64,000 bases of DNA from Candidatus Rifleibacteriota bacterium. Its GTDB lineage: Bacteria; Muiribacteriota; Ozemobacteria; Ozemobacterales; Ozemobacteraceae. Shown here one piece after another: positions 22,687 to 48,947 of the stretch. A program made the translations under genes and the position numbers. Positions within the stretch are counted from its first letter, which is position 1. Each line of letters opens with the position of its first letter. The DNA lies in the NCBI GenBank assembly GCA_017417215.1, contig JAFPZP010000107.1, forward strand, positions 1 to 64,000, given 5' to 3'. The notes beneath the pieces were generated by a model. That model ran no database searches, had not been told where the DNA came from, and saw only the letters and a program-made list of their open reading frames with translations.

Positions 22687-24906
22687 ATGTCTAAAGCAAG
22701 AAAAAGTATTTTAATTATTTGCATAACTTTATTTATAATGCTTATTCCTATCTGGTTATGCAGTAATAAAATTACAAGGGGTACATTTTTTGTTCCTGCT
22801 GATCCTGATTCTTTATTTTATTGTAGGATAGTAGATCAGGCTTTGCAAAAGGGAAGTGAAAAATATATAGATTATGATAATTATGGAAACTTCCCTTACG
22901 AATTCAAAATAGGGTACCCCAGATTGTATTATTGGCTTTTATATTTTTATAAATTGGTGTGTACAAAAATATCACCCAAAAATTCTGAATTTTTATTCTT
23001 GCTTATTCCGGTATTAACAACAACTTTAACGGCAATAATTATTGTTATTTCTTTTTGTTTTTTTAAATATCCTATTTTATTTATTGTCTTAACAGCTTTT
23101 GCTTTGCTTCCTTCTTTTTGTGCGTTTTCTGTGGGAAGTTTTGCTAAATTGGATTATGACCATGTTCTATCTTTATATTTATGGCTTTGGCTGTTAAGTT
23201 CAATGTTTTATCAAGACAGTCAAAATAAAAAATGGCTGTATTTAGGTGGTGTTTTTGCTGGGTTGGTTTTAGGCAGTTGGATAGGCTCTCTGCTTATTTT
23301 TACTGTTGTTGCACTTGTCTGTTTTGGTTTATGGTTTTTTAATTCAAAATTATGTGAAAAGTATTTACTTTTTTGTTATTCAACTTTTGGTATAGCAACT
23401 CTTATTAATGCTTTAATTATCTTGGTTTCGCCAAGCAGATATGGTACCGTTCTTCTTGATTTCGGAATAATTCATATATCAGCTATGGTCCTGGAAACTT
23501 TAGGAATTTTCGTATTATCAAAATTTAAGGCTACAAATAAAATCAGAGTTTTGCTTTTATCTATGGCTGTTATAATTCCTTCAATTTATTATTTAATTAA
23601 TCCTTCTAACTTTATTGATTTAATTGGGAAAGTTTTTGGCACAGACCCTATTTATGTTGAGATACAAGAATTACAGCCTTTAATAGATTTAAAAAATAAA
23701 ACACATTCAAATACTGCTATTTTCAGTAAAGCAATAGTTAATTATGGCTTTTTATTCTTTCTTTTTCCTATTGTTCTTTTTGGCTCTGTAAAAAGAGATA
23801 TAAACAAAGATTCTGTATCGTTGTTAAAGCTTTGGACTATTATTGTTTTTCTGGCTGGTATTTATCAATGTAGATATACTAGAATTTTTGGTATAGGCAG
23901 TTGTATTTATGAGGCTTTTATTCTTTTTTACTGCTTGAGCCGTTTTAAAGAAAAATTTAGAAAAAAATTAAAACCATTAACTTACAAAATAATTCTTATA
24001 TTTTGCATCTTATTATCTCTTCTAGTTGTTAGATATACTTCTATGATAAGCCTTTTTATTCAAAATCAGAATATAAGATTATCTGAGTTGGAAGCATTTC
24101 ATTGGATAAAAGCGAACACACCCGCTACTTCCGGGTATTATGATACTAACAAACCCGAATATGGCATTTTAGCTTATTGGGATTTTGGACATCTAATCAA
24201 TTATTATGCTCACAGACCTGTTATTGCTAACAATATGCAAAATGGTGTTAAAAATATGGCTGCTATTTTTTCTTCTAAAGATGAAGAAACTGCTTATAAG
24301 CTTTGTGAGGATTTAAAAGTTAAATATGTTTTTATGGCACCAGACAGGGTTTTATTCCCATCAACCATTGACTATTGGCCTGCTTACAAAGAACAAGAGC
24401 CGGGACCTGGCTATAAGGCTTTACCTTATAACGTTGAACGCAGTAAAGACTATGATAAATGGTTCTTTACATGGTTGAACAAATGTTTTGGTTTAATGGG
24501 AAGAGGAGGTTTTGGTGTCACTTCTCATTTCAGGATTATATTTGGGAATGCAGAGAGGAAGTCACCTTCTTTTTCTACTCTTTTATTTGAAAGAGTGAAG
24601 GGGGCAAAACTAACTATTAAAGCAAAACCTGATTCTAATGCTGTGGTTTCATTGAGGTTAAATGTTAGAGGTAAATTATTGAATTACTTTAAAGTGTCTA
24701 AAGTTTCTGAAAATGGTTATGCTTACTTCACTTTGCCATATTCTTGTTATTTTAATAATAGAATAGTTCGTACATCAGAGCTTTATAATATTTCTTTTGT
24801 TTCACATGAAACAGATAAAAAAGTAGTAGGTAAAGTTTTGGTAAAAGAAGAAGATGTTATTATGGGAAATGAGGTTGCAACAGGCTCTATTATTATGTTT
24901 AAGTGA
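22687..24906 (+). CDS. STT3/PglB/AglB-like oligosaccharyltransferase
   Basis: 739 residues with about 12-13 membrane helices to residue ~450 and a C-terminal soluble domain. Three STT3-type signatures are visible: an acidic DPD motif in the first extracytoplasmic loop (39-41), a second LDYDH acidic motif (155-159) and AYWDFGH (496-502) in the place of WWDYG, followed by INYYAHRPVIANN. This family transfers lipid-linked oligosaccharide to Asn on exported proteins. Two glycan- or envelope-type neighbours follow at a distance (murJ, and a GT-C gene 30 kb away). The acceptor and glycan are unknown; an O-linked or non-glycosylating homologue remains possible. Confidence 0.8.
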   Translation: MSKARKSILIICITLFIMLIPIWLCSNKITRGTFFVPADPDSLFYCRIVDQALQKGSEKYIDYDNYGNFPYEFKIGYPRLYYWLLYFYKLVCTKISPKNSEFLFLLIPVLTTTLTAIIIVISFCFFKYPILFIVLTAFALLPSFCAFSVGSFAKLDYDHVLSLYLWLWLLSSMFYQDSQNKKWLYLGGVFAGLVLGSWIGSLLIFTVVALVCFGLWFFNSKLCEKYLLFCYSTFGIATLINALIILVSPSRYGTVLLDFGIIHISAMVLETLGIFVLSKFKATNKIRVLLLSMAVIIPSIYYLINPSNFIDLIGKVFGTDPIYVEIQELQPLIDLKNKTHSNTAIFSKAIVNYGFLFFLFPIVLFGSVKRDINKDSVSLLKLWTIIVFLAGIYQCRYTRIFGIGSCIYEAFILFYCLSRFKEKFRKKLKPLTYKIILIFCILLSLLVVRYTSMISLFIQNQNIRLSELEAFHWIKANTPATSGYYDTNKPEYGILAYWDFGHLINYYAHRPVIANNMQNGVKNMAAIFSSKDEETAYKLCEDLKVKYVFMAPDRVLFPSTIDYWPAYKEQEPGPGYKALPYNVERSKDYDKWFFTWLNKCFGLMGRGGFGVTSHFRIIFGNAERKSPSFSTLLFERVKGAKLTIKAKPDSNAVVSLRLNVRGKLLNYFKVSKVSENGYAYFTLPYSCYFNNRIVRTSELYNISFVSHETDKKVVGKVLVKEEDVIMGNEVATGSIIMFK

Positions 24907-25313: not shown

Positions 25314-27041
25314 ATGAATACTGAAGAAAAACTAAATTCTAACGAAAAAGATGTTCCATGTGAAACTATACAAAATAATGATTCACATATAAAAGAATCT
25401 GCTGATTCAACATCTAATGAAACATCAAAGAAAAAGACTTCCGTCGCTCGTTCGGCAGCAGTTATGGGAATTGCTACTTTTTTTAGCCGAATAGCAGGTT
25501 TGGTCAGAGAACAGACTTTTGCTTACCTGTTTGGGGCAGGTAAATGGACAGATGCTTTCAATGTTGCTTTTAAAATACCTAACCTTTTAAGAGACCTTTT
25601 TGCAGAAGGTGCAATGAGTGCTGCTTTTGTTCCGACTTTTAATTCTATTTTGCAAAAAGAAGGCGAGGAAAAGGCTTTCAGGCTTACTAACCTGACTTTT
25701 TGCGCAATTCTTATTGTTGTTGGCAGTTTAACAGCACTTGGAATGGTTTTAAGTCCTTACATTGTTCAGATTCTTGCCCCTCAATTCATTGAAGACCCTG
25801 AAAAATTTGCTGTTACAGTAACTATGACACGCATAATGTTCCCGTTTTTGCTAGTTATTTCCTGGGCAGCGATTTCTATGGGAATGCTTAATTCATTGGG
25901 CGAGTTTTTTATCCCCTCTGTAGCACCGGTTTTTCTGAATCTCTCTATGATTTTATCTGGCTGGCTCATTTGTCCTTTGGCTGTAAAGTTTAATATGCCT
26001 GCTATTACAGGTATGGCAATTGGAGCTATGCTTGGTGGTATATTGCAGTTCACAGTTCAGCTCCCATCTCTTGTTCGAAAAGGTTGGAAATTCTTTTGGT
26101 GTCTGGATTTTAAAGACCCGGGCATTAGAAAAATTGGTAAGTTGATGATTCCTGGAACAGTCGGCTTAGCTGCTACCCAGATAAATGTTGCTGTTAATAC
26201 TATACTTGCTACCTCTCAGGGTGATGGGGCTGTAAGCTGGATAAGTTATGCCTTCAGAATAATGCAGCTTCCTATAGGCATATTTGGGGTTGCGGTGGCT
26301 CAGGCTACTTTACCAGTCATTTCACGACAGGCTGCCAGCGGAGATAAAGATTCAATGGCAGGAACATTAGCCAGTTCTATAAGACTTTCTTCCTTTATTA
26401 ATCTTTGGGCTTGTTTTGCCTGTGTGGCATTAGCTGAACCTGTAATCAGAATTATTTATCAGCATGGAAGATTTGGAATTGCAGACACCTTAGCTACTAC
26501 AGCAGTTTTGAGGGCGTATTCCATAGGACTTGTATTTTATGCTCTGATAAAGATTCTTGGCCCTGCATTCTATGCCTTAGAAGATACAAAGGTTCCTGTA
26601 AAGGCAAGTATTATTTCTATTATAGTGTCGATTACTTTAAGTCTGGCTTTGATTAAACCTTTTGGTTATATAAGTTTACCATTCAGCAGCAGTATAGCTG
26701 CTATAGTCAATGCTGGTTTTTTATTCTTCATGCTTCAGAAAAGGGTAGGGGGCTTTGGAAAATACTCTCTTGTATCTGGATTAATAAAGATTTTGATTGC
26801 TACTGCTATTTCTGGTGTGGCAACCTATTATTCCTATGTTGGTTTTGCAGGTTATATGGGTTCTTTGTTCCCGGCATATGTTGCAGGAACTTTTATTAAC
26901 TCTGTAGTTTCATTATGTGTGGGCGGTTTAGCTGGTCTTGTAGCTCTATATGTTGTTTCAAGATTGATTCATGTGGAAGAAGCAGATAAAGCTGCTGAGC
27001 TTGTTTTGAAAAAGATTCGCCGAAAAAAGACGAATAACTGA
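25314..27041 (+). CDS. murJ: Lipid II flippase MurJ (MviN family)
   Basis: 575 residues with about 14 membrane helices. The segment SAAVMGIATFFSRIAGLVRE followed by GAGKWTDAFNVAFKIPNLLRDLFAEGAMSAAFVPTF is the diagnostic MurJ N-terminus. It flips undecaprenyl-linked peptidoglycan precursor across the inner membrane. An unusual hydrophilic extension of about 40 residues, rich in Ser, Lys, Asp and Glu, precedes the first helix; the ATG at 25314 is retained because no better ribosome-binding site is seen further in. The C-terminus is basic (KKIRRKKTNN). Confidence 0.95.
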   Translation: MNTEEKLNSNEKDVPCETIQNNDSHIKESADSTSNETSKKKTSVARSAAVMGIATFFSRIAGLVREQTFAYLFGAGKWTDAFNVAFKIPNLLRDLFAEGAMSAAFVPTFNSILQKEGEEKAFRLTNLTFCAILIVVGSLTALGMVLSPYIVQILAPQFIEDPEKFAVTVTMTRIMFPFLLVISWAAISMGMLNSLGEFFIPSVAPVFLNLSMILSGWLICPLAVKFNMPAITGMAIGAMLGGILQFTVQLPSLVRKGWKFFWCLDFKDPGIRKIGKLMIPGTVGLAATQINVAVNTILATSQGDGAVSWISYAFRIMQLPIGIFGVAVAQATLPVISRQAASGDKDSMAGTLASSIRLSSFINLWACFACVALAEPVIRIIYQHGRFGIADTLATTAVLRAYSIGLVFYALIKILGPAFYALEDTKVPVKASIISIIVSITLSLALIKPFGYISLPFSSSIAAIVNAGFLFFMLQKRVGGFGKYSLVSGLIKILIATAISGVATYYSYVGFAGYMGSLFPAYVAGTFINSVVSLCVGGLAGLVALYVVSRLIHVEEADKAAELVLKKIRRKKTNN

Positions 27042-27251: not shown

Positions 27252-29813
27252 ATGCTATACAAATTTTCTAACAAAAAAGGTAATATTACTTTAATCCTTG
27301 TTGGGCTTATTTTCGTAATGATGATTATGACTATGTTTTTGTCACGTCGTCTTACAAGCCATACCCAGTTGCTCACTTTAGGTGATTATACCCAAATAAG
27401 CAGATATTATCTTGAATCCTATGCTAATCATGTTATGCAACAGGTTAGAGCTCAGGTTAATGATCCTACTTCCAAGTTAAATGAAGCAATGTGTCAAGAC
27501 ATAGAGTCATTACCTAGTAGAGATTTAACTGATTGTTTCGTTTATAAAGAATCTGATGCTCTTAAAGAATTAGAAATAGTATATGGCAATAATAATAAAA
27601 TAAAAAGGTTAGTCGGTCCTGGTAACTTTTCAATAAAACTGACTAATAACACAGAAGCTATTGGTTACCCTGAGTGGTTAACAATAGAAAAAGAAAAAAC
27701 CTTGGATAATCTTAAAAAAGAAAAAGAAGGCGTCTTAGAGGTTACTTGTGCCTGTTCATTTAATAAAAGAAAATATACTCTTGTTGTTCAGTTCCCTTTC
27801 ACAGTTGTTTATCGTATGACTCCAGTTCTTAAAGATTTTATGCTTTTTGCTGATAATATTTATTCTGAACAGAGATGGGAAAAACAAGTTAAATTAAGTG
27901 ATGATAAAAGTCTGGATAGATTAAATATTGTTGCCATAGAAAATGGTAGGGCAGTCTTAGAAGATTATGCAGAAAGTCTTAAAGAAGACAATGATATTAA
28001 TTTTAATTATATTAATCGAGGTAAATTCAGGATAAGACCCTGGTTTTTGTTGCAACCTCCAGAAGGTGAGGCTGTAGACGAAAAAAATTCTGGAATGGTA
28101 TATTTAGGGCCTACAGATAGAACTTTTGGAAAATCAATTTTTTATAATTTAGGTGGTATTGCTCCTAAAAGCGATCCAGATTCCTCTGATACAGATCTTA
28201 TAGACCACAGTGATGTTAATATTGTTACTCCAGAATCAGTAGGTTTGCCTCAAAATTTTGATATAACAAATGAGACTGCAGATTTCCCAATAGGTGGTGG
28301 TATTAAATCTTATGGAAGAGAAACTCATTTAAAATCGGAAGGTCACCATTTGAATTTAGGGGTTATAGGTTTCTGTAAAGAGTTTACTACTTTTTTTGAT
28401 GTTGGTATATATAAACTTTCTGATTTCTTTAATGATGATTCAGATGTATTAATGAAACCTGATAGTGAAACTTTCTGGGGTGAAATAATTAAAAAATCGT
28501 TAGACTATAGGAAATACTATGGCTTTTCATTTGGCTTAAAACTTTTTGGAGTTCATTATAAAACTATACTCGGTAACCCTGTTCCACCCGTAAAACGTCA
28601 GATTTTTGGAAATGTTTTCGGACGATTTATATTGTTCAATATGTGGAGTGGTCCTTCGTCAGCTTTCCAAGCATTAAAATATAATCCTAATTGTACTATT
28701 GATGAAGTTCCACCTCAGGAGTTGAATTATTTAGCAGATAGAGATCCAATATATTTCAGACCAGAGGAATATGAAGAGGGGATGAGCGAACAAGAACAGA
28801 GAGAGATATATAATAAATATATGTCTAAAACCATGTCTGGTATGGTAACCAAAGACCATTATAAGAAAAATGGAGATGGTCGTAACCAATCTCTCTTTAT
28901 GCCAATAAATTATGATTATGATGGCGGATGGGAACATAAAATTTTTGATGATAGTGATTTTGAAGCAAACGATGGCTTTAAATTTAAAGGTAGAGATAAG
29001 GGTTTTGATAAATTTGGTGAATTGTGGTTTGCAAGAAAAGATGATAATCCATCAGACCCTACCGATGACCGTTCTTGTATAGAAAAACGTATTGGTAGAA
29101 CTTTTGAAGATGAAGATAGATTTAAAGAAGCTGTTGGTTATCCAGAAAGATTTAAGATTAATGGTGTGGTTTATGTAAAAGGTGATTTGGATTTAAGTAA
29201 GGGAATGAATTTAAAGGCAGATGATTGCAGTGGCGGAATCGTCTTGGTCGATGGTGATATAAAAGTAGGTAATATTCTTAGAGGGCAAGACCCAATATTT
29301 GATAGAAACAATAAATTTGAATTGTTTACTGGTAGTGGCAATGGAGTTGAAATTTATAAGGGTTGGGTTGATTCTGCATCAGAATATTACATTGGTGCAG
29401 ATAAGATTTTAACTTTTGTTTGTTTGCCTAATGGAGGGAAAAAACGAAAAATAGAGATAGTTGGAAACACTTTATTGGGCGTTCAGCTTATTAATCTAAC
29501 TCAAGATGATTCTAAAAAAAGATCAAGCTGGGACCGTGAAGAAATTGAAGACCAGATTTGTTGGAATTTGCCAATAGATAGCAAGAAGAAAGACATTATT
29601 TTCTATGGGTCTATTGCCTGCAATCAGTTAAACTTGCCTCGAAGACTATTAGAATTTGGTGAAATCACTAATAGCTGTGATGCTGTTTTAAATGCACCCG
29701 TCTTTTTGTATCCTTCTGTTATGGCTTCAGAAACTCCTCCTTTGGCTGTTCAGATTATGGAAGATATGCGGTGTTACCGTCTTACTGCCGAAAAAGAAGG
29801 AGCTACAGATTAA
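27252..29813 (+). CDS. Giant PilX/GspK-like pilus-assembly protein (cluster 2)
   Basis: 853 residues. The N-terminus NKKG-NITLILVGLIFVMMIMTMFLSRRL is a prepilin-like site and helix without Glu5, then a PilX-type helix (YTQISRYYLESYANHVMQQVRAQV). The protein is far longer than typical PilX (~200) or GspK (~300). The C-terminal part (about 650-730) has strands such as VVYVKGDLDLSKG and GGIVLVDGDIKVGNI that suggest a beta-helix-like module seen in other large PilX-related proteins. First gene of cluster 2; its stop shares a base with the next start. It probably forms a large tip domain displayed outside the membrane. Confidence 0.72.
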   Translation: MLYKFSNKKGNITLILVGLIFVMMIMTMFLSRRLTSHTQLLTLGDYTQISRYYLESYANHVMQQVRAQVNDPTSKLNEAMCQDIESLPSRDLTDCFVYKESDALKELEIVYGNNNKIKRLVGPGNFSIKLTNNTEAIGYPEWLTIEKEKTLDNLKKEKEGVLEVTCACSFNKRKYTLVVQFPFTVVYRMTPVLKDFMLFADNIYSEQRWEKQVKLSDDKSLDRLNIVAIENGRAVLEDYAESLKEDNDINFNYINRGKFRIRPWFLLQPPEGEAVDEKNSGMVYLGPTDRTFGKSIFYNLGGIAPKSDPDSSDTDLIDHSDVNIVTPESVGLPQNFDITNETADFPIGGGIKSYGRETHLKSEGHHLNLGVIGFCKEFTTFFDVGIYKLSDFFNDDSDVLMKPDSETFWGEIIKKSLDYRKYYGFSFGLKLFGVHYKTILGNPVPPVKRQIFGNVFGRFILFNMWSGPSSAFQALKYNPNCTIDEVPPQELNYLADRDPIYFRPEEYEEGMSEQEQREIYNKYMSKTMSGMVTKDHYKKNGDGRNQSLFMPINYDYDGGWEHKIFDDSDFEANDGFKFKGRDKGFDKFGELWFARKDDNPSDPTDDRSCIEKRIGRTFEDEDRFKEAVGYPERFKINGVVYVKGDLDLSKGMNLKADDCSGGIVLVDGDIKVGNILRGQDPIFDRNNKFELFTGSGNGVEIYKGWVDSASEYYIGADKILTFVCLPNGGKKRKIEIVGNTLLGVQLINLTQDDSKKRSSWDREEIEDQICWNLPIDSKKKDIIFYGSIACNQLNLPRRLLEFGEITNSCDAVLNAPVFLYPSVMASETPPLAVQIMEDMRCYRLTAEKEGATD

Positions 29814-30349
29814 TGGGTCTGAAAACCAGAGCTTTTTCAATGGTTGAAGTCATGGTAGCTATTGTCGTCTTTGCGCTGGCAATTCTTCCATTGGTTTGGT
29901 TAAGCTCTAAACAAACAAAAGAGGCTTTCCATGTCGGTAAACATATGATGGCAGGTCAGCTTGCCGCAACTTTCATGGATAATATTCTACATCGTGACTA
30001 TGATGATGTTTCTAATATTGCTAAAAAAAGTCCTTATGAAGGCGATGTGCTTGAAAATTCTTCTAATTCTAAGATAAAAGATTTTTTTAATTTATCTGAA
30101 ATGGTTGAAGGTCTAGAGAATGAAAAAGCTAATGAAAATATAAAAATTTCGTTTAGAAATTTTAGATATAAGATTACTTTGAAAGAAAATTTAAAAGACA
30201 GCTATAATTCTGATACTAAAGAATATGGAAAGGCTATATCTATAACAGTTGAAGTTTCATATTTAGTTTCAGATAATAAAAATGATAGAGATAGAACAAG
30301 GCAATATTTGCGTATAAATGCGATTAAATATGGTGAAATGCATAAATAA
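29813..30349 (+). CDS. GspI/PulI-like minor pseudopilin (cluster 2)
   Basis: 178 residues from the ATG at 29813, which shares its A with the upstream TAA and has AAGGAG at 29796-29801; a longer reading frame from 29771 would add 14 residues and is not favoured. The signal TRA-FSMVEVMVAIVVFALAILPLVWLSS has Ala at -1 and Glu at +5. The following helix (HMMAGQLAATFMDNIL) is of the GspI/PulI type. It is the second of a three-gene pseudopilin set. Confidence 0.78.
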   Translation: MGLKTRAFSMVEVMVAIVVFALAILPLVWLSSKQTKEAFHVGKHMMAGQLAATFMDNILHRDYDDVSNIAKKSPYEGDVLENSSNSKIKDFFNLSEMVEGLENEKANENIKISFRNFRYKITLKENLKDSYNSDTKEYGKAISITVEVSYLVSDNKNDRDRTRQYLRINAIKYGEMHK

Positions 30350-30350
30350 T

Positions 30351-31058
30351 ATGAAGAAAACTGGTGATTATCTAAAAAATAAAAAAGGGATAACTGTTAT
30401 GGAAATAGTTATCGTAATTGCCATTTCCAGTATTATTATGGGAGTTGCAATGGCTATGATGAGTCGCAGTAATACCCAGTTTAAGAGAAGCACCAATATG
30501 ATAAACATACAACGTTTGATGGATAATATTATTGAACGTATTCGTTCAGATGTTCGTTCTTTAAAACGTATTGTTCCATCGGATGATAATGGGTCTGGTA
30601 ATGATACTATAACTTCTGGAGATCCTAATAAAATTAGTTTTGTCGTAGTAAAATTTATAGATGCTGAAAGCTATGATGATATTGATAAAGAACATAATTA
30701 TTCTAAAATAACTTATGAGTTTGACCCTGAACAAAAGACTCTTTTTCGATATGAAATTAAAGACTGTGATATGTATGGAGTAGGTGGTGAAACTGTACCT
30801 GAAGAGTCTAACTTTCATGGTATGAATCAGGTTCTTTCTATGAACTTTGATCCTGTGTTTAATCATGAGTATGAAGATGGCGTAAGAACTAAAAGAGATT
30901 CAAATAAAGGTGATGATTTCAAATGTTTGAATGTTGCTATGCAATTAGTCGCTAATGAATACAGTAGCAAAGATTCTGATGCATCAACTTTATCTATTGC
31001 TTGCCAGTTTTATTCAACATGTGTAGAATCAAAACTTAGATTTGATGATAATAAATAA
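30351..31058 (+). CDS. PulJ/GspJ-like minor pseudopilin (cluster 2)
   Basis: About 235 residues from the ATG at 30351, which lies 1 nt after the previous stop; an in-frame ATG at 30318 would add 11 residues inside the upstream gene. The signal NKKG-ITVMEIVIVIAISSIIMGVAMAMMS has Glu at +5. The helix INIQRLMDNIIERIRSDVRSLKRIV is typical for the GspJ class. It completes the K/I/J-like set of cluster 2. Confidence 0.78.
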   Translation: MKKTGDYLKNKKGITVMEIVIVIAISSIIMGVAMAMMSRSNTQFKRSTNMINIQRLMDNIIERIRSDVRSLKRIVPSDDNGSGNDTITSGDPNKISFVVVKFIDAESYDDIDKEHNYSKITYEFDPEQKTLFRYEIKDCDMYGVGGETVPEESNFHGMNQVLSMNFDPVFNHEYEDGVRTKRDSNKGDDFKCLNVAMQLVANEYSSKDSDASTLSIACQFYSTCVESKLRFDDNK

Positions 31059-38254: not shown

Positions 38255-39115
38255 TTATTTGCCAGGAACAAATTTTTTATTTGCAGATTCTTCCAGTAAT
38301 TTTTTTACTTTATTTCTTTGAATTTCAGATAGCGTATCTAAGCTTGCTTTTGAAGATATCGGCAATAAAATATCTAATACAGTTGAATAACGTTTCATTT
38401 TAAAAGCTGCTTCAGCTTTAGATATTAAATATGAACGGTTTTTAGGTTCAGAAGCGGCAAGTTGAGAGTAGAACAGATAGGACTTTTGATATTTACCTTC
38501 TTCCATTGCTTCTCTAGCCATTTGTTCCATATAGCTTTCCGAAGAAAACAGGCTTTCTACAGAGGGGTAGGGTGTTGGAAGTGCTAGATCGGATGGAAGT
38601 CTTATGGCGGCCGAAGAGATAGGTTCTTTTATTAAGACTGGTTCCATTAATGGAACAGAGGCTCCTGGTTCATCTTTTACTGATGTTACTGGGAATGCAT
38701 GACCAAAATAACCTCTTTTATAAAAATCAGCTGAAACCTGAGGGTCGTTCATATCTTTTTCGCTAGGTTCAATGCTGAACGTTCCACTTCTATATTCTAA
38801 TTCTCTTAGAAGTTCAAGATACTTGGTTATTATAGGATGGTTAGGAGATTGTTTATTAGCTTTTAAAAACCAACTTTTTGAGCTTTTATAATTGTTTAGG
38901 TAAAAATTGCTCATACCTAATATTATAAGTGCTTGAAGATTATTGGGGTAAAGTTTTTGAAACTCTAATGCTTTGTCTGAAGCTTCAGAGTATTTGCCTT
39001 TCTGATAGAGTCTTTCAGCTTCTCGCAGAGACCTTGGCATCTCTGCGCAGTTTATTTGCTGAGTAGAAGCTAACATTATAGCTGTGACAGCTATTAGATT
39101 GGCATATTTGTTCAT
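38255..39115 (-). CDS. Secreted TPR protein at the end of the pilus operon
   Basis: 286 residues with a signal peptide (to about residue 23, QQINCAEM) and TPR repeats at about 28-100 (EAERLYQKGKYSEASDKALEFQKLYPN) and 190-275. A low-complexity Pro/Ser-containing section joins them. Last gene of the core pilus operon, 5 bp after the Pro/Glu-rich gene. It may stabilise the envelope-spanning part of the machine, as TPR pilotins do; this is inferred from position. Confidence 0.78.
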   Translation of the reverse strand: MNKYANLIAVTAIMLASTQQINCAEMPRSLREAERLYQKGKYSEASDKALEFQKLYPNNLQALIILGMSNFYLNNYKSSKSWFLKANKQSPNHPIITKYLELLRELEYRSGTFSIEPSEKDMNDPQVSADFYKRGYFGHAFPVTSVKDEPGASVPLMEPVLIKEPISSAAIRLPSDLALPTPYPSVESLFSSESYMEQMAREAMEEGKYQKSYLFYSQLAASEPKNRSYLISKAEAAFKMKRYSTVLDILLPISSKASLDTLSEIQRNKVKKLLEESANKKFVPGK

Positions 39116-39120
39116 TTGAT

Positions 39121-39819
39121 TTATTGAGCTGATGATTGTGCCGCAGAATCAGGGGTTTCCTGTTTGTGGGGATTTTCTCCGCTTTGTTCTATAGGATTTG
39201 GTGTAACTGTTTCTGAAACAGTAGCTGGAGTTTCTTCTTTTTTAGGTTCATTTGCTGCTGCTTCTGGAACAGTTGGTGTTTCTTGGGCAGGCTCAATATT
39301 AGCAGCTTCTTTGGGTTGTTCTTTAGATTCTACAGGAACAGATTTTTCTTCAGATTCAGTTGAAGGAGCAGGTTTTTCTGTAACTGTTGGTTCTGTAAAT
39401 ATTTCATACATTCCGGAATCTTGAAGAGCTTTGCTGTCTTTTACAGCTGAAGTTTTTGCCTTTTCTTCCGGCTTTTTATTAGTGTTCTTGCTCGAATCAG
39501 CATCACTCTGATTCCAGTCTATATTATCTTCAATAATGATTTGTTCTGGGCTGGTTAAACTTTCGCTTAAATCAGAATTGTCTGAAGTTGTAGGAGAACT
39601 ATTTGAATTATAGCTTGGTTCAGACAATTGCATTGGTTGACCAGCTCCTGGTCCGCTCTGATGTTCTAAGTCCCAAGAATCGCCTTTTGCCCAATCATCA
39701 GGTGGTGCAAAATCTTCTTGTTTAGCTAGCTGCTCATAAGCTTTATTTGCTGATATAAGGAATCCGGCTAGTAGTAATACTACTAGAGCCCATTCCCAAG
39801 TTTCTTTTCCACTATTCAT
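39121..39819 (-). CDS. Pro/Glu/Ser-rich membrane-anchored protein in the PilP position
   Basis: 232 residues. One helix near the N-terminus (about 10-25, WALVVLLLAGFLISA) is followed by roughly 200 residues of low-complexity sequence rich in Pro, Glu, Ser and Thr with no recognisable fold. It is encoded right after PilO, where PilP is found in canonical pilMNOP operons, but no PilP domain is visible. It may be a flexible periplasm-spanning TonB-like tether. Alternative: a fast-evolving lineage-specific protein. Confidence 0.6.
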   Translation of the reverse strand: MNSGKETWEWALVVLLLAGFLISANKAYEQLAKQEDFAPPDDWAKGDSWDLEHQSGPGAGQPMQLSEPSYNSNSSPTTSDNSDLSESLTSPEQIIIEDNIDWNQSDADSSKNTNKKPEEKAKTSAVKDSKALQDSGMYEIFTEPTVTEKPAPSTESEEKSVPVESKEQPKEAANIEPAQETPTVPEAAANEPKKEETPATVSETVTPNPIEQSGENPHKQETPDSAAQSSAQ

Positions 39820-39846
39820 TTATTTCTCCTATATAGCCAAGTATAT

Positions 39847-40491
39847 TTATTGTTCGTTAAGAGGGAAAGTTAAGGTCATTGTTGCTCTTATAAGATTTTG
39901 TTTAAAAACAAAATCTGCTGCTCTAACCGCATTTACGGGTATTTTTTCTAAGAGTTTCAAAGTTGAATACATATTTTTAGGTTCTGCAGAGAATGTAATC
40001 TTTACAGGTGTAATTTCTATACCTTTCCAATCATCTTCATCCTGAGTATAAGCATTTACAGGCATTCCATTTTCGTCTAGCATTGGAATGTTTTCTGCTT
40101 TATTGTCTTTGTTTGAATTGTCTGATGTTTGTACTGGAGGTTCTTCAGTCTTATTATCATCTTCTGGTTTGAAATAATAAGAGCTGTAAAGATTGTAAGA
40201 ATTGATTGATATATGACTTTTTGTTTTGGGGGTATCAAGGAAAAGTTTCATTATTTGTCCTTCTTGCCCAATAGAAACTAATTTTGGAGTATTTTTTTCG
40301 ATAGGTTTTTCATCAGATAAATCGCCAAGTTCTTTTTTTATCTTATCTAGGTTAATTTTTTGTTCTACTATATCTTCTTCGGTTTTTTTGATTTCAGCGT
40401 TTAGTTTTGAAACTAAGAAGAGATTTCCTAATACTACGAAAACTATGATTGCTACTATCATAAAAGCCATATTCGATAATATTTTGTTCAT
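39847..40491 (-). CDS. pilO: PilO-like pilus assembly protein
   Basis: 214 residues. An N-terminal membrane helix (about 7-27) is followed by a coiled coil (about 28-58: KLNAEIKKTEEDIVEQKINLDKIKKELG) and a C-terminal alpha/beta domain (YSTLKLLEKIPVNAVRAADFVFK), the PilO/GspM layout. It overlaps the PilM-PilN gene by 4 bp. It connects the PilM-PilN cytoplasmic ring to the periplasm. Identification relies on architecture and position; sequence similarity to proteobacterial PilO is weak, and the middle has an insertion rich in Asp, Asn and Glu. Confidence 0.68.
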   Translation of the reverse strand: MNKILSNMAFMIVAIIVFVVLGNLFLVSKLNAEIKKTEEDIVEQKINLDKIKKELGDLSDEKPIEKNTPKLVSIGQEGQIMKLFLDTPKTKSHISINSYNLYSSYYFKPEDDNKTEEPPVQTSDNSNKDNKAENIPMLDENGMPVNAYTQDEDDWKGIEITPVKITFSAEPKNMYSTLKLLEKIPVNAVRAADFVFKQNLIRATMTLTFPLNEQ

Positions 40492-42200
40492 CTTAACTCT
40501 CCTTTCAAAAGAAATTCCACTTTATTGCCTCTGACTTTTTTTGTTTGAATATTCACATATCTTTTTATTGCTTTTGGCAAGGCTTTGTTATTTTGATCTT
40601 TTACAACAGAATTTAATCTTTCTGAGAATCTGCTGACTTGGTTTATGTCTGAAGCAAAGCCATGGATTATTACAATTTTTCCGTCAATATCTTCTTTAAT
40701 TTGTTCTTCTGCTACATCTGAACTGAGACGGCTTAAATATGGAGAACCTTCTTCTTGAGAAGACATACCGAAAGAACTGTCTGAGGTTTCATTTTCTTGT
40801 TTTAATGTAATCTGTTCTGCTTCGGACTTATTGCGAATTAGAATGTCATCTATTTTCATTCCAGGTTCTCTGAATCGCATTGTTAAAAGGAACAAATTGC
40901 TTAAGTTTCCTCTGTTTGCAATGATAGGTTCTATAACTTTCATTGAGGGAGGGCTGAGTTTTATCTGAACAGCTGGTTCTTTCCCTTTTTTGTTGGCTAT
41001 TTTCAATTTACAGGCTTCAATTTCATTTTTTATTGAATCTGCTTCAACCATAAGGTTATCTAGCTTTTCTGACTTTGTCGAATAAAGATAATATAATATT
41101 CCAAAGCTGATTAATAGTGCAAAAATACCAATGAATAATGGCAAGGTCTTTGCCAGTTTTTCTAATTGTTTTTCTTTTTCTCTTATTTTAAATAAAGTTA
41201 ACAGGTCCATCCTTCCTGTATCATCTTGGAAAAAGGCAAGACAGCCACCTATAGCAGGAACAAAGGGCAATAATTTTAATGAATTTTCAGAATTTACTTC
41301 TTCATTAAAGCTTAAAGCCATAACAGGACTTATATCTAATTCTGAGGAAATATCTAGAGCATTAATTTTTGTCGGTGAAAAATAGCTTTGTTCAAATTTT
41401 AAAACATCGGGAATCGAACTACCACCACCCATAAAGAAAAGAGCGTCTACTTGGTTTAGTTTGCTTACAGCTCTAAAGTAGTCGAAACTAAAACGTATTT
41501 TTTGAGAATACATTTCTAATTCGTTTTCTTGTGGGGGGGTAGTCATTTCTGAGGTGCCTGTAGGTATAAATCTATAAAATTTAAGCTTACCTGCAGAGAA
41601 AATGTTTAGATGGGTTCCTGAATAACCGAAATTAACAATTGATAAGGCTGGAAGACCTGCGATATCAATAATAGGCTGTAAAGCCAAAGCAGAAAAAATA
41701 TCTGTATAAACGGCATCAGGAGTAATTCCTGTTCCATTAAACAGACTAACATGAGCATCAAGAATTGATTGTGGAACTACGGCCAATGCAATAGAAAGAG
41801 GATTTCCTCTTGTTATGCAGTATGAATATGAAAATTCTTCTTCTTTATAATGGGAAGATAATAGTTTTTTGGCTTCCCAAGGAAGAGTCTGGTTTAATTG
41901 TTCTTCTTTTACTGTGTTAGGGAAATCAATTAACTTAACTTGTAGTTCGCGGTTATAGAAAAGTGAAATGATTTTTTTACATTTCGTTAACTCTAGTTTC
42001 TGAGCTAAAGTGGTAATTGCTTCTGTAATTTGCTTATTATAGTCTGCTTCGTTGGTAAAAGTATCAAAGGGATTTATTTCAATACTTTCTATATTTAATA
42101 ATCTTTGCCCTTTGTCATTTACTTCTATAACAATGGCTTTTACGGATTTGGTGCCTATATCTATTGTTCCATATAAACCTGGATTAATTTTCTTTTTCAT
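40488..42200 (-). CDS. PilM-PilN fusion protein
   Basis: 570 residues. The first ~340 have the actin-like ATPase fold of PilM (GTIDIGTKSVKAIVIE at 11-26, VNFGYSGTHLNIF, DALFFMGGGSSIPDV). A membrane helix at about 350-370 (LPLFIGIFALLISFGILYYLY), a coil and an alpha/beta domain follow, which is PilN/GspL-like. In most species PilM binds the N-terminal peptide of a separate PilN; here they are one chain, as in GspL of type II secretion. It recruits PilB/PilC and is followed by PilO. Confidence 0.8.
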   Translation of the reverse strand: MKKKINPGLYGTIDIGTKSVKAIVIEVNDKGQRLLNIESIEINPFDTFTNEADYNKQITEAITTLAQKLELTKCKKIISLFYNRELQVKLIDFPNTVKEEQLNQTLPWEAKKLLSSHYKEEEFSYSYCITRGNPLSIALAVVPQSILDAHVSLFNGTGITPDAVYTDIFSALALQPIIDIAGLPALSIVNFGYSGTHLNIFSAGKLKFYRFIPTGTSEMTTPPQENELEMYSQKIRFSFDYFRAVSKLNQVDALFFMGGGSSIPDVLKFEQSYFSPTKINALDISSELDISPVMALSFNEEVNSENSLKLLPFVPAIGGCLAFFQDDTGRMDLLTLFKIREKEKQLEKLAKTLPLFIGIFALLISFGILYYLYSTKSEKLDNLMVEADSIKNEIEACKLKIANKKGKEPAVQIKLSPPSMKVIEPIIANRGNLSNLFLLTMRFREPGMKIDDILIRNKSEAEQITLKQENETSDSSFGMSSQEEGSPYLSRLSSDVAEEQIKEDIDGKIVIIHGFASDINQVSRFSERLNSVVKDQNNKALPKAIKRYVNIQTKKVRGNKVEFLLKGELR

Positions 42201-42604
42201 ATTGCCTCCGTAAATTTGCCGCAGCCATTTCTGCCATTACTTTTTGAAATGCCTATTCTTGAAAGGGTTCGGCGAGAAACTTCTTTGTTACCTTCCATTA
42301 GAATTGCTTCTGAATTAATATCTATAAGATTATTGTTCTTTATAGCATTTATACTAACTTTGAGTGTACGATTAGGTTTTAATTCTGACACATAAGAATA
42401 ACTAAAAGGTTGATATTTTTGTCTGAGTTTGGCTAATCCTATTTCTAATCCACCATCTGCAGCATGAAATGCTATGACATCAATCGCATCTGAACGGCTG
42501 ATATCAAGGGTAAACATGCTTATTTCCTGGCTTCCGGTGACTAATAGAAATACAACTGTAGTTACCAGAAAAGTAAGATATATGCTAAAACCTTTGCGAT
42601 TCAT
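42197..42604 (-). CDS. PilX/GspK-like minor pseudopilin (core operon)
   Basis: 135 residues. MNRKG-FSIYLTFLVTTVVFLLVTGSQEIS has the prepilin-peptidase Gly but Leu at +5. The region DVIAFHAADGGLEIGLAKLRQ is the PilX-type helix with the AxxGxxxG pattern. A short protein for this class. It overlaps both neighbours by 4 bp. Confidence 0.72.
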   Translation of the reverse strand: MNRKGFSIYLTFLVTTVVFLLVTGSQEISMFTLDISRSDAIDVIAFHAADGGLEIGLAKLRQKYQPFSYSYVSELKPNRTLKVSINAIKNNNLIDINSEAILMEGNKEVSRRTLSRIGISKSNGRNGCGKFTEAI

Positions 42605-42996
42605 GCAGACCTCCTTCTAAAACAGAAGAGTCGGTCTGTTTTTTCACTGGAATCTGCGATTCCATTGTTATTTCTGTCTTCAAAAACACTAATCTTTATG
42701 AAAAAGGTATCATCATCGTGTTTGGTGACCTTTAATTCGCTGTATCCAAAACCAAGAGGGCATTTAATATCGTTATTCATGTTTTTTAACGATATATTAT
42801 TTTCGTTATTATTTAATATTTGATTTCTGACCCAGATTCTAGCTTCTGTTAAACAGGTTCTTTCTTTCCATGAAGTAGCAGAAACTTTGTATTTCATATT
42901 GCTCCAGTTCAACAGATTAAGCAAAGCTGTAACAGTTAACCCCATTACAAATATAGAAACGGTAACTTCTAAAAGTGAAAAACCTTTTTTAACCAT
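42601..42996 (-). CDS. Minor pseudopilin (core operon, GspJ-like)
   Basis: 131 residues. MVKKG-FSLLEVTVSIFVMGLTVTALLNLLN is a canonical class III prepilin signal with Glu5. Near the C-terminus EDRNNNGIADSSEKTD resembles a calcium-binding Asp/Asn loop, which would suit stabilisation in the external pseudopilus. It overlaps the GspI-like gene by 8 bp. Confidence 0.75.
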   Translation of the reverse strand: MVKKGFSLLEVTVSIFVMGLTVTALLNLLNWSNMKYKVSATSWKERTCLTEARIWVRNQILNNNENNISLKNMNNDIKCPLGFGYSELKVTKHDDDTFFIKISVFEDRNNNGIADSSEKTDRLFCFRRRSA

Positions 42997-43399
42997 TATT
43001 TTTCACCTCTAGATTTGGAAGAAATAAGAAAGATTCAAGCTGTAATTCACGATCTGAGTGAGTTACTCTTACTTGAAGTCTTATAGTATCTTCTGGAGCT
43101 TGTGTTGTTAAAAGTGTTGTTAATTTCCAACCTGGTTTTAATCTGAATCTACAAGGGATTTTTCTTACTTTTTCTGCTTTTAAATTACCATTTAATAATT
43201 CAGATTTTGTTAATTCGATTTCTCTTTCAGCTAGAAAAGCTGCTTCTGATTCGAAACCAGCATGACTATTTAGTTTGGCTGAAACCTCAAAACCAGAAAA
43301 AATAACAGATAAAGAACCTGCTAAAACAAACAATGATATTAAAATTTCTATAAGACTGAATCCATGTCTTTTATTGATTGTAACAGTTTTTAATATCAT
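42989..43399 (-). CDS. GspI/PilV-like minor pseudopilin (core operon)
   Basis: 136 residues. The signal KRHG-FSLIEILISLFVLAGSLSVIFSGF has His-Gly before the cleavage point and Glu at +5. The helix SHAGFESEAAFLAEREIELTKSELL is of GspI/PilV type. It overlaps the GspH-like gene by 4 bp and the next by 8 bp. Confidence 0.77.
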   Translation of the reverse strand: MILKTVTINKRHGFSLIEILISLFVLAGSLSVIFSGFEVSAKLNSHAGFESEAAFLAEREIELTKSELLNGNLKAEKVRKIPCRFRLKPGWKLTTLLTTQAPEDTIRLQVRVTHSDRELQLESFLFLPNLEVKNNG

Positions 43400-43890
43400 A
43401 GCAGAATTGTTATTGTAGCAGTTTTACCATTGGGCGAAGTTAGTGATAAATCTAATTTATGTTTTTCTTTGCCATTAATCGAAAATCTGCCGTCTTTATC
43501 GATTTCAATGAGCTTTGGAATGCTATCTATACAAAGCTCTGGAACTTTAAGAAAAGATGTTGTAGATTCTGGATTCACAAGACTTTTAGCATTCTGGTTG
43601 TAAATTATTTTGATGTTCTGCTTACGAAGTCTAGCCCTATCTTTACAACTCTGAAAAAAGGTCTGTATCCTGTCTTGGGCTGATTTATAGCGTGTATCCT
43701 GAACAGCTCCAGAATAACTGCCTATAGCTGCACTTGATAGAATCCCAATAATGAGGACTACTATCAATATTTCAATTATGGTAAAGCCTGATTTTTTATA
43801 GCAACCATTATTGTTATATCGGTGTCTGTGGAGACGCAAATGGCTTTTATCAGACTTTATTTGGCTGATTTTACTGCAGCAAATCAGCAT
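43396..43890 (-). CDS. GspH/FimT-like minor pseudopilin (core operon)
   Basis: 164 residues with an unusually long basic leader (about 33 residues, His/Arg/Asn-rich) before KKSG-FTIIEILIVVLIIGILSSAAIGSY. A later internal start is possible and would give a normal leader. The helix SAQDRIQTFFQSCKDRARLRKQN and the following strands match GspH/FimT. It lies 9 bp after the major pilin gene. Confidence 0.75.
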   Translation of the reverse strand: MLICCSKISQIKSDKSHLRLHRHRYNNNGCYKKSGFTIIEILIVVLIIGILSSAAIGSYSGAVQDTRYKSAQDRIQTFFQSCKDRARLRKQNIKIIYNQNAKSLVNPESTTSFLKVPELCIDSIPKLIEIDKDGRFSINGKEKHKLDLSLTSPNGKTATITILL

Positions 43891-43899
43891 AATGATTTA

Positions 43900-44412
43900 T
43901 TACCAGTAGTGATGAGCGCCGTCTTTAGAACCATCGGCTCCCATTTGTCCGTTCATACCAATCCATCTGGTGCCTAATCTTATACCACAAACAACGCCTC
44001 TGCCGCCCATTTTACCATCAGAGCCTATAATCCAGAGTGAAGTATTATCTGTATTATAAAATCTGTAGCTAGAGCCATTCCAGGTGTAACCCCATCTATT
44101 GGCTGCTTCTGGACAGATGAAAAGTTTGACATCCTTAGCGGTGTCGTTAAGCTGAAGAAGAGCATTAGAGTATTTCCAACGCATATTTCCAGCGCGGTCT
44201 ATCCATGTCCATCTGTTTTTCCCTGTGTCTAATTCATAATTCTTTGCTTCCCACAGAGAAATAAGACTTTCTATACCTTTTTGGTTAGAAAGACAAGACT
44301 TTGCACGTGCAATAGACGCAATGCTCTGATATCTTGGTATAGCTATTGATACCAGAATGCCTATTACAAGGACTACAATTAATAGTTCAACTAAAGAAAA
44401 ACCTTTTCGCAT
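43900..44412 (-). CDS. Major pilin / GspG-like prepilin
   Basis: 170 residues from the ATG at 44410-44412, chosen because GGAGG lies 5 nt upstream and it gives a short leader MRKG (the frame extends upstream to 44463). Signal MRKG-FSLVELLIVVLVIGILVSIAIPRYQSI with Glu5 is the best canonical one in the window. The globular part is Gly/Trp/Tyr-rich and ends GADGSKDGAHHYW, with Cys residues that could form a disulfide. Position right after PilB and PilC and the strong ribosome-binding site argue for the main fibre subunit. Confidence 0.82.
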   Translation of the reverse strand: MRKGFSLVELLIVVLVIGILVSIAIPRYQSIASIARAKSCLSNQKGIESLISLWEAKNYELDTGKNRWTWIDRAGNMRWKYSNALLQLNDTAKDVKLFICPEAANRWGYTWNGSSYRFYNTDNTSLWIIGSDGKMGGRGVVCGIRLGTRWIGMNGQMGADGSKDGAHHYW

Positions 44413-44464
44413 ATCGCCTCCACAAATTTTAGCAATAGGTTTTGTGTTCCTAATAATTAACACT

Positions 44465-45673
44465 TTATCCTACAACTTTAACAATGTCAAATAATGGTAA
44501 GTACATCGCCATAGCAATTATTACGATAAATATTGCTAAGAATACAACCAATGCAGGCTGTATTAGTGTTACAGCCGTTTCTAGAGCCATTTCCATGTCT
44601 CTTTCAAATATATTTCCTGCTTTTTCAAGCATATCGCCTATATTACCGCTTCGTTCCCCAACATCTGTCATTAATATGATACTTTCTGGAAACAATTTTC
44701 TATGTTTGCCTATTGATTGAGAAAGTGATTCGCCTCTACTAACAGCTTCTCTTATTTCAACCATTGCTTTTTTGTAAATAACATTACTTAATGCTTTTTC
44801 AACTGCTTGAAGAGAAGTTAAAATAGGAACTCCACATCGAAGTAAAGTTCCAAGTATACGTGCAAAAAGAGCTATCTGCACTTGTTTTAGAACTTCACCC
44901 AATACTGGCATTTCAGTAAAGAATTCTGTGATTAGCTCGTTGCCTTTCGGAGTACTTCTTAATATTTTCCAGAGGGCAACAAGAAATACTATACCGGCTA
45001 TAATAAAAGGATAATGGTTAGAAAGAAGATTAGACACGTAAAGCACAAGTTGAGTAACCGCAGGCAGTTGATTGCCTGTACGTTGAGTTCCTTCTATAAA
45101 TACGGGAAAAACTTTTACTAATAAAACCCAGACGACTAACAAGGTACCTATTAAAAGAAAGCCTGGGTAAATCATTGCTTGGAAGATTTTTTTACGCAAT
45201 TTATACATTGTGTCATAGATATATGAGTATCTTTCCAGGACTTCACCTAACATTCCGCCAACTTCACCGACTTCAACCATTGTTATGAACAATGAAGGGA
45301 AAACTTCTTTATGAGTTTTTAAGGCTTCTGAAAAGGATTTACCAGACTCAATCTTTTCTTTAACTTCTTTAAGCAATATTCTTAATGAAGCATTAGATAC
45401 CTGTCTATAAAGAGCATTTAAACTCATTAAAAGAGGACATCCAGCTGTTATTAAATTAGAAAGCTGAATTAGAAAAAAATTCATGTCTTTGTGAGGTATG
45501 CTTAAATATTTGTGGTTGTTTCCTACTATATTTTGAAGGGTTGCTTGAGCAATGCTGACAACAATGTAACCTCTATCAGAAAGCCATGTACCTACATCTT
45601 CGGTTTTTTCAGCTTCTAATTCACCGGTTACTTCATTGCCGTTAACATCTATGGCTTTATAAGAATACCTCAT
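44465..45673 (-). CDS. pilC: PilC/GspF inner-membrane platform protein
   Basis: 402 residues, normal length. The N-terminal SYKAIDVNGNEVTGELEAEKTEDVGTWL, two T2SSF repeats (FFLIQLSNLITAGCPLLMSL and ALFARILGTLLRCGVPILTSL) and the VGEVGGMLGEVLER motif with its second copy VGERSGNIGDMLEK define the family. Three membrane helices (about 168-190, 220-240, 372-395). It couples the PilB ATPase to pilin extrusion. It is 15 bp after pilB. Confidence 0.95.
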   Translation of the reverse strand: MRYSYKAIDVNGNEVTGELEAEKTEDVGTWLSDRGYIVVSIAQATLQNIVGNNHKYLSIPHKDMNFFLIQLSNLITAGCPLLMSLNALYRQVSNASLRILLKEVKEKIESGKSFSEALKTHKEVFPSLFITMVEVGEVGGMLGEVLERYSYIYDTMYKLRKKIFQAMIYPGFLLIGTLLVVWVLLVKVFPVFIEGTQRTGNQLPAVTQLVLYVSNLLSNHYPFIIAGIVFLVALWKILRSTPKGNELITEFFTEMPVLGEVLKQVQIALFARILGTLLRCGVPILTSLQAVEKALSNVIYKKAMVEIREAVSRGESLSQSIGKHRKLFPESIILMTDVGERSGNIGDMLEKAGNIFERDMEMALETAVTLIQPALVVFLAIFIVIIAMAMYLPLFDIVKVVG

Positions 45674-45688
45674 ATTTAATCAACTACC

Positions 45689-47425
45689 TTAAGAAGTGAC
45701 TCTTCTTATTTCTTCACCTCTAGTTAAGCGAAGAACTTCTTTTAGAGTAGTTACACCCTTTATTGCTTTTTGTAATCCATCAACACGCATAGTTCTCATT
45801 CCAGATCTGATGGCTGCTTGTCTTATATCACGAGCTGAAGCGGAATCAAGAATTAATCCATGTATTTCGTCATTTATGGTCATTATTTCATGTATTGCTG
45901 TTCGGCCTGCATAACCGGTTTTTCGGCAGGTTAAACAGCCTTTGCCTCTGTATAATTTGATATCTTTGAAGCCATTTTCTTCCAATATTTCGATATGTTC
46001 CTGGTCTTTGGGTTCATAAGAAATACGACAGGATGGACATATTTTTCTTACAAGACGCTGACCGCCAACTCCGATAACTGCAGAAGCTACAAGATATGGT
46101 TCAACACCCATTTCTATTAATCTTGTAACTGCTGAAGCTGCATCATTGGTGTGTAATGTTGAAAATACCAAATGACCGGTTAGAGCTGATTCAATAGCGA
46201 TCTGAGCTGTTTCAAAGTCACGTATTTCCCCGATTAGAATAACGTTGGGGTCTTGACGAAGAATAGACCTTAGGGTACGAGCAAAGGTAAGTCCGATTTC
46301 TGATCTGACTTGAACTTGATTTATACTCGGAATTAAGTATTCAACAGGGTCTTCAACTGTTGTGATGTTAATTTCAGGACTTTTTACAAAATTTATAGCT
46401 GCGTAAAGAGTTGAAGTTTTCCCTGAACCTGTTGGACCAGTCATAAGAACTATTCCGTTAGGAGCAGATGATAAGGTTTTAAATAATTTAAGCAAGTCTT
46501 CGTCGAAGCCAACCTGATCTAATGTTAGTGATAAACGGCTTTTATCTAATATACGTATAACTATTTTTTCACCAAAAACTGTTGGCAACGAAGAAACACG
46601 TAAGTCAATGCTTTTGTTCTGAACTTTAACTTTTATACGACCATCTTGTGGCAGACGTTTTTCTGAAATATCCATCTGGGCCATAATTTTAAGACGAGAA
46701 ATGAGTTCGCTTTGGATGGTTTTCGGGGCTTTCATTAATTCGTTTAGAATACCATCTATTCTATAACGTACTCTGACAACTTCTTCGTCTGGTTCTATAT
46801 GAATATCACTTGCTTTATCGTTGATTGCCTGCTGAATGATAGTGTTAACCAGATTAATGATTGGAACATTCTGTTCTTCTTCATTAAGGTCGAAAGTGGT
46901 GAAAAAGCTTTCGTCTAAGGTCACTTCTGTTTTTCTTTCTGCAGCAAGATTATCAACTGCATTTTGCAAACTTTCACTATTCCCATAATAGTGCTTTATA
47001 GCAGCTTCTATTTGAGATTCTGGGCTGATGCCTATTTCGAGTTCATAACCTGTTTGAAAAGTTATTTCATCTATGATGAAAACGTCTAAGGGGTCAGCCA
47101 TTGTTATTTGTAATCTATTGCCTTCAAGTTTTACCGGCAAGAGGTTATGGCTTCTGACAATACCGTCTGGAATAGTGGTTAAGACTTCTGGAGTAATGGC
47201 TATTTCATTAAGATTCAGATATGGAATATTCATTTGGGTAGCAAGTGTAGTAGCAATACTGTCTTCTGTTGTTAAACCAGTATCTACTAAAACTTTACCC
47301 AATCTTTTTCCAAGAATCTTTTGCTTAGAAAGTGCTTCTTGAAGTTGCTGAGCAGATATTACTCCGGCCTCTACTAAAATATCGCCAAGTCTTTTTCTTT
47401 GTGGCTTCCCTGCTTCTGAAACCAT
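45689..47425 (-). CDS. pilB: PilB/GspE assembly ATPase
   Basis: 578 residues. An N-terminal MshEN-type domain (about 10-150), then the secretion ATPase with Walker A GPTGSGKTS (330-338), Asp box VEDPVEYLI, Walker B ILIGEIRDFETAQIAIES and His box TGHLVFSTLHTNDA. A zinc-binding tetracysteine (CPSC ... CLTC) near 465-505 is characteristic of PilB/GspE rather than PilT. It drives pilus or pseudopilus assembly from the cytoplasm. No PilT retraction ATPase is in the window. Confidence 0.96.
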   Translation of the reverse strand: MVSEAGKPQRKRLGDILVEAGVISAQQLQEALSKQKILGKRLGKVLVDTGLTTEDSIATTLATQMNIPYLNLNEIAITPEVLTTIPDGIVRSHNLLPVKLEGNRLQITMADPLDVFIIDEITFQTGYELEIGISPESQIEAAIKHYYGNSESLQNAVDNLAAERKTEVTLDESFFTTFDLNEEEQNVPIINLVNTIIQQAINDKASDIHIEPDEEVVRVRYRIDGILNELMKAPKTIQSELISRLKIMAQMDISEKRLPQDGRIKVKVQNKSIDLRVSSLPTVFGEKIVIRILDKSRLSLTLDQVGFDEDLLKLFKTLSSAPNGIVLMTGPTGSGKTSTLYAAINFVKSPEINITTVEDPVEYLIPSINQVQVRSEIGLTFARTLRSILRQDPNVILIGEIRDFETAQIAIESALTGHLVFSTLHTNDAASAVTRLIEMGVEPYLVASAVIGVGGQRLVRKICPSCRISYEPKDQEHIEILEENGFKDIKLYRGKGCLTCRKTGYAGRTAIHEIMTINDEIHGLILDSASARDIRQAAIRSGMRTMRVDGLQKAIKGVTTLKEVLRLTRGEEIRRVTS

Positions 47426-47436
47426 TAGTTAATCCT

Positions 47437-48189: not shown

Positions 48190-48200
48190 TTAATCACCAT

Positions 48201-48911: not shown

Positions 48912-48918
48912 AAAGTGA

Positions 48919-48947
48919 ATTTTAGCTTTATTACTTGCTGTTGTCAA
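48919..48947 (-). promoter_or_regulatory. Near-consensus promoter of the pilus operon, leaderless
   Basis: On the minus strand TTGACA (48942-48947), 17-bp spacer, TAAAAT (48919-48924). The ATG at 48911 begins 7 nt after the -10, at the expected transcription start, and no ribosome-binding site is present, so the first message is predicted to be leaderless or nearly so. Confidence 0.7.

Follow-up and report, generated by a model that had tools for sequence, protein, structure and literature searches.

The known glycosylation of bacterial filaments is mostly O-linked and relies on enzymes with no relation to STT3. Even the archaellum that Chloroflexota acquired appears to be O-glycosylated (PMC12488501). 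Bacterial homologues of Stt3/AglB are few and branch among the euryarchaeal sequences, with at least two archaea-to-bacteria transfers inferred (Lombard, PMC4973528). The bacterial oligosaccharyltransferases (OSTs) assayed by Ollis et al. came from Epsilonproteobacteria, Deltaproteobacteria (Geobacter, Desulfovibrio) and one Aquificae species, Hydrogenivirga (PMC4894442). An initial sequence-only reading of the DNA studied here had called bacterial STT3 uncommon outside Campylobacterota and Desulfo-lineages, which agrees with both papers. For the AglB of A. fulgidus (AfAglB), residue roles have been described for Asp47, Asp161/His163 and Glu360 (PMC8342417), and the WWD part of the WWDYG motif touches the +2 Ser/Thr of the acceptor (PMC7226087).

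Our window, the whole stretch of 64,000 nucleotides that was analysed, belongs to a Candidatus Rifleibacteriota genome of 2.57 Mb in 108 contigs, 69% complete. It contains an intact ORF of 739 open codons starting at ATG (Table 1). The predicted protein matches Pfam AglB_core (E 3.2e-12, 47.2 bits vs a cut-off of 27) and AglB_L1 (E 5e-6, 27.0 bits vs 23.6), and both domains are present in all 19 full-length homologues (profile match E<=0.01). The NCBIfam archaeal OST model TIGR04154 matches at E 2.9e-55; the score of 188 bits does not reach the curated cut-off of 450 bits, which applies to archaeosortase-A-associated AglB, and no exosortase-family (PF09721) partner, as this model would suggest, was found in the host genome at its 69% completeness. 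phmmer matched AfAglB structures, and among solved sequences the AglB domains of A. fulgidus and other archaea lie nearest. Pfam's model of the STT3 membrane domain, PF02516, matches control archaea and has no match anywhere in the host genome, so the membrane half of the protein is divergent. Similarity of the translated ORF to the STT3/AglB/PglB superfamily is far above chance.

Table 1. Features of the OST homologue and its downstream neighbours in the window
Feature	Coordinates	Strand	Remark
AglB-type OST homologue (STT3 superfamily, GT-C fold), 739 aa	22687..24906	+	window-type paralogue
First DXD motif, EL1, D39-P40-D41	22801..22809	+	D41 = AfAglB Asp47 = PglB Asp56 (PMC8342417, PMC7226087)
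Second DXD motif, EL2, D156-Y157-D158	23152..23160	+	
EL5 TIXE-type motif, E325-I326-Q327-E328	23659..23670	+	E328 = AfAglB Glu360
AglB core domain PF22627, residues 469-550	24091..24336	+	
WWDYG-position motif, Y497-W498-D499-F500-G501	24175..24189	+	
AglB_L1 peripheral domain PF18079, residues 639-730	24601..24876	+	
MurJ-family lipid flippase	25314..27041	+	murJ-prepilin synteny ancestral in host family, elsewhere without OST
Large protein with hydrophobic N-terminus, first gene of prepilin cluster	27252..29813	+	putatively prepilin-like
Prepilin-like protein, PF07963 N_methyl, weak PilV match	29771..30349	+	candidate substrate
Prepilin-like protein, weak N_methyl match	30318..31058	+	candidate substrate

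An AlphaFold model built from a 19-row alignment (pLDDT 85, pTM 0.84) has a membrane half of many helices, about 13 when counted by eye, the number that had been proposed from the sequence, and a C-terminal half that is mixed alpha/beta. Its top fold match is AfAglB 7e9s (E 4.2e-25, TM 0.77 by query length), followed by eukaryotic STT3 (E about 1e-13, best 7e-14) and then bacterial PglB (E 2e-10); the best 19 PDB matches are all AglB, STT3 or PglB chains. The difference of many orders of magnitude between the AglB and PglB matches, together with the L1 domain, the peripheral domain of the AglB-long type, points to an AglB-like rather than a PglB-like protein. The original description, an STT3/PglB-like OST in a non-campylobacterial bacterium, thus holds in its STT3 part, which is backed by sequence, profile and fold, and has to be changed from PglB to AglB, given the L1 domain in all 19 relatives and the far better AglB fold match. 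The product is a genuine AglB-like OST homologue, that is, a predicted transferase named by homology and fold.

The three signatures first picked out, DPD (residues 39-41), LDYDH (155-159) and YWDFG (497-501), lie in order at the first DXD, second DXD and WWDYG positions of known OSTs; the EL5 TIXE-type motif and an RYxR region, with R399 invariant in the homologues, can be added to them. In the alignment D41, D156 and E328 are invariant (19/19). The second DXD reads DYD, DYH or DHH in every homologue, D-H-H being the AfAglB form, and D156/D158 correspond to AfAglB Asp161/His163. The TIXE position, EIQE in the window protein, is mostly [TS]IxE-like in relatives, with the change of Thr to Glu found in the window-type clade only. 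A conserved F-x-x-W-L-like helix occupies the place expected for the DK/MI motif, its register to DK/MI being ambiguous. The putative metal-binding and catalytic acids are retained.

The WWDYG motif is altered throughout: Tyr or Phe takes the place of its first Trp in 19/19 full-length homologues, leaving none with the strict form. The window copy retains W-D and Gly and most relatives retain W-D, the Asp having become Gly or Ser only in the OSTs of genomes G006, G010 and G011 (3/19), which are otherwise intact and may differ in how they recognise acceptors or in activity. That the whole clade lacks the first Trp suggests a weakened or altered recognition of the +2 Ser/Thr, so that sequon reading may differ. 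A larger departure would be an STT3-fold transferase with changed acceptor chemistry, either glycosylating pilins through O-linkage or at non-sequon sites or using a non-protein acceptor, for which the decay of WWDYG would mean that +2 reading was lost. The missing Trp and the three missing Asp residues fit this alternative, as do pilin sequons that are not enriched (below) and the frequency of O-glycosylation on bacterial filaments (PMC12488501). We nonetheless hold it to be unlikely: D41 and E328, the acids by which OSTs activate the Asn amide, are invariant, a sign that the amide chemistry is retained, and W-D persists in the window copy and most relatives.

A profile search with 19 homologues found OSTs in 16 of 24 host-family genomes and in 0 of 16 genomes of other families in the phylum. 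The relatives number 20, comprising 19 full-length sequences and a fragment in G013; three are of the window type (G000, G019 and G020) and 17 are others. The host genome has two copies, that of the window and one on contig C93. The family profile had no match to viral contigs; among plasmids the sole match was a haloarchaeal AglB core. A scan of genome contigs with the OST gave as sole match a close relative, deposited as 'uncultured bacterium' assembly RUG334, a name that we take to denote a rumen assembly.

Up to 20 kb around each homologue was extracted and the encoded proteins clustered. A pilin gene adjoins the OST in 17 of the 20 relatives, which are all 17 copies outside the window-type clade (16 full-length and the G013 fragment, itself at a contig end). 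Among the 16 full-length ones the two genes are divergent in 15, and their spacing is 42-255 bp in 15 and 1,022 bp in the remaining one. The linked major pilin is GspG-like (T2SSG 1.5e-8, GspG 6e-18), and many of these loci also encode PilM, PilO, secretin, T2SSE and T2SSF proteins, making them type IV pilus/T2SS-like. Glycosyltransferases are also encoded nearby, as are a methyltransferase, B12 radical SAM proteins and a DUF2304 protein; an often present GT2 resembles PpgS/AglJ most and has dolichol-phosphate mannose synthase (DPMS) as its nearest solved structure. This OST family is strongly linked to pilin genes, and in a limited literature search we found no report of an STT3-type enzyme with such a link.

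We note some peculiar loci: (i) On a single contig of G012, ~34 kb separate two OST copies, each linked to a pilin (L012/L031, L019/L038), and the pilin beside one of them is short and atypical (MSFPEIIVV...). (ii) In two host-genus genomes the OST-linked pilin is followed in tandem by another, divergent GspG-like pilin (L037 8142-8753, L035 4236-4811). (iii) In the host genus a sulfatase-fold membrane protein (PF00884) lies beside the OST (L037 3153-4970, with relatives in G019, G020 and G021); it is weakly similar to phosphoglycerol transferase I and might modify the glycan or the pilin.

Strong PilM orthologues of the pilin locus occur in 19 genomes, all of the host family, with an OST in 16 of these (G013 counted) and in none outside, a co-occurrence confounded by shared ancestry and incomplete genomes. 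Of the other three, two (G008 and G025) contain the pilin but yielded no OST, and the G018 contig stops before the pilin. Non-orthologous OST replacement at the G008 locus was considered and rejected, its upstream neighbour (L100:7096-8754) being by eye an M48-type peptidase. One could instead suppose a general N-glycosylation OST with many exported N-x-S/T targets, like those of Campylobacter or haloarchaea, whose pilin adjacency merely reflects an old conserved pilus operon. Family and fold do match known N-OSTs, many targets are usual for bacterial and archaeal OSTs, and the window copy sits away from the pilin locus. Such a generalist is nevertheless unlikely here, since the first Trp of WWDYG is absent from every member, OST distribution follows the pilin locus, and the adjacency persists although the OSTs have diverged to 20-30% identity.

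The pilins offer no matching excess of acceptor sites. Their globular parts hold 16 N-x-S/T against 30.7 expected, so there is no enrichment in OST-linked pilins; several contain none, and none of the window prepilins is enriched. D-x-[ST] is similarly below expectation, and the N-x-S/T shortfall is thus not sequon-specific. The conserved Asn of a pilin-loop 'NVL' was rejected as an acceptor: it occurs also in OST-lacking G008, and as Asn in G025, and is probably structural. The earlier idea of pilin N-glycosylation therefore gains unexpectedly from gene order, with every non-window-type copy adjoining a pilin, and finds no support, as regards N-x-S/T, in sequon counts.

In an OST tree that took in one archaeal full-length sequence (Halocatena, on a very long branch), the three window-type copies group together with 100/100 support; their stem is long, at 1.39 changes per site, and they branch with the G026 and G014 copies with moderate support. 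From this topology the window type likely arose by duplication or transfer within the host family, followed by rapid change. The stem and the change of TIXE Thr to Glu might be taken as signs of a paralogue that is decaying or no longer transfers glycan, having become, say, a mere hydrolase of lipid-linked glycan. We think this highly improbable: the OST is intact in three species and keeps all catalytic acids, and dN of about 0.3 lies well below dS of 1.3-1.7 (dN/dS about 0.2), which indicates purifying selection.

The window copy is a paralogue that is restricted to one genus, diverges fast and has murJ and a prepilin cluster as neighbours. Homologues of the large first protein of that cluster occur in 20 of 24 host-family genomes; in G020 the homologue is split into two overlapping ORFs (L022 10974-13657), an assembly error or a frameshift. 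All six genomes examined that lack a window-type copy have the prepilin cluster without an OST, with murJ nearby in 5/5 where the contig is long enough. Since this synteny exists in other genera without an OST, the OST is a newcomer there, and its neighbours may not be its substrates; we rejected the murJ/prepilin neighbourhood as an ancestral OST partner on the same ground. Elsewhere in the window (38255-48947, - strand) lies another assembly locus of type IV pilus/T2SS-like kind, with PilM-like, T2SSF, T2SSE and several prepilin-like proteins.

The adjoining OST and pilin genes suggest that host-family bacteria decorate their filaments with sugars. We consider it probable that the family is a single-subunit, AglB-type polyprenol-phosphate-glycan transferase of the bacterial inner membrane, dedicated to pilin-like filaments. 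The AglJ/DPMS-like GT2 and other locus-encoded glycosyltransferases would build a glycan on polyprenyl (mono)phosphate; the AfAglB donor is monophosphate-linked (PMC8342417), which makes such a donor plausible here by analogy. The polyprenyl-linked glycan would be flipped outward, and the OST would move it en bloc onto an exported acceptor, most likely pilin or pseudopilin subunits, with linkage probably to Asn, by homology. The window copy would be a genus-specific paralogue that moved from the pilin locus to the murJ/prepilin neighbourhood and probably serves different but related acceptors, e.g. the adjoining prepilin-like proteins. Counting against the pilin-dedicated reading are the unenriched sequons, the lack of a strict WWDYG, the Thr to Glu change of TIXE in the window clade, the pilins without OST in G008 and G025, and the murJ/prepilin synteny without OST elsewhere. 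A more specific and less probable version, which we advance tentatively, is that an AglB-type clade was recruited for a GspG-like pilus or pseudopilus, its altered pocket reading an acceptor site other than N-x-S/T, and that the window paralogue serves a second filament system.

Among known systems, archaeal AglB (AfAglB 7e9s/3wak/5gmy) shares with the window protein the whole-length fold, core and L1 domains, both DXD motifs, the TIXE Glu and an ANNxQxG segment after WWDYG. It differs from the window protein, which is bacterial, in the latter's YWDFG and in the TIXE Thr to Glu of the window clade, and from the host OST family in the pilin-gene linkage and in PF09721, not found in the 69%-complete genome. 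The haloarchaeal AglJ-AglB system, which N-glycosylates S-layer proteins, archaellins and pilins, has in common the linkage of an AglJ-like GT2 and an AglB-like OST, seen at many of our loci; the host system, known here from genes alone, is by contrast bacterial and lies beside GspG-like pilins. With bacterial PglB (Campylobacter lari/jejuni, Desulfovibrio, Geobacter, Hydrogenivirga) the host OST shares superfamily, general fold, catalytic acids and a single-subunit bacterial form; it differs in its much weaker fold match, AglB-type L1 domain, pilus-locus neighbourhood and altered WWDYG, a pocket that serves as a natural experiment on acceptor-site reading by OSTs and is relevant to glycoengineering. 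The pilin O-oligosaccharyltransferases (Neisseria PglL, Pseudomonas PilO/TfpO) have the same proposed job, moving lipid-linked glycan to pilins, and their genes often adjoin the target gene, as the host OST adjoins a pilin. PglL is of a different family, with WaaL O-antigen ligases (PMC3643930), and is not STT3; an AglB-type enzyme kept next to the major pilin gene in many genera of a single uncultured bacterial family would, if the proposal is true, represent an independent way of glycosylating filaments.
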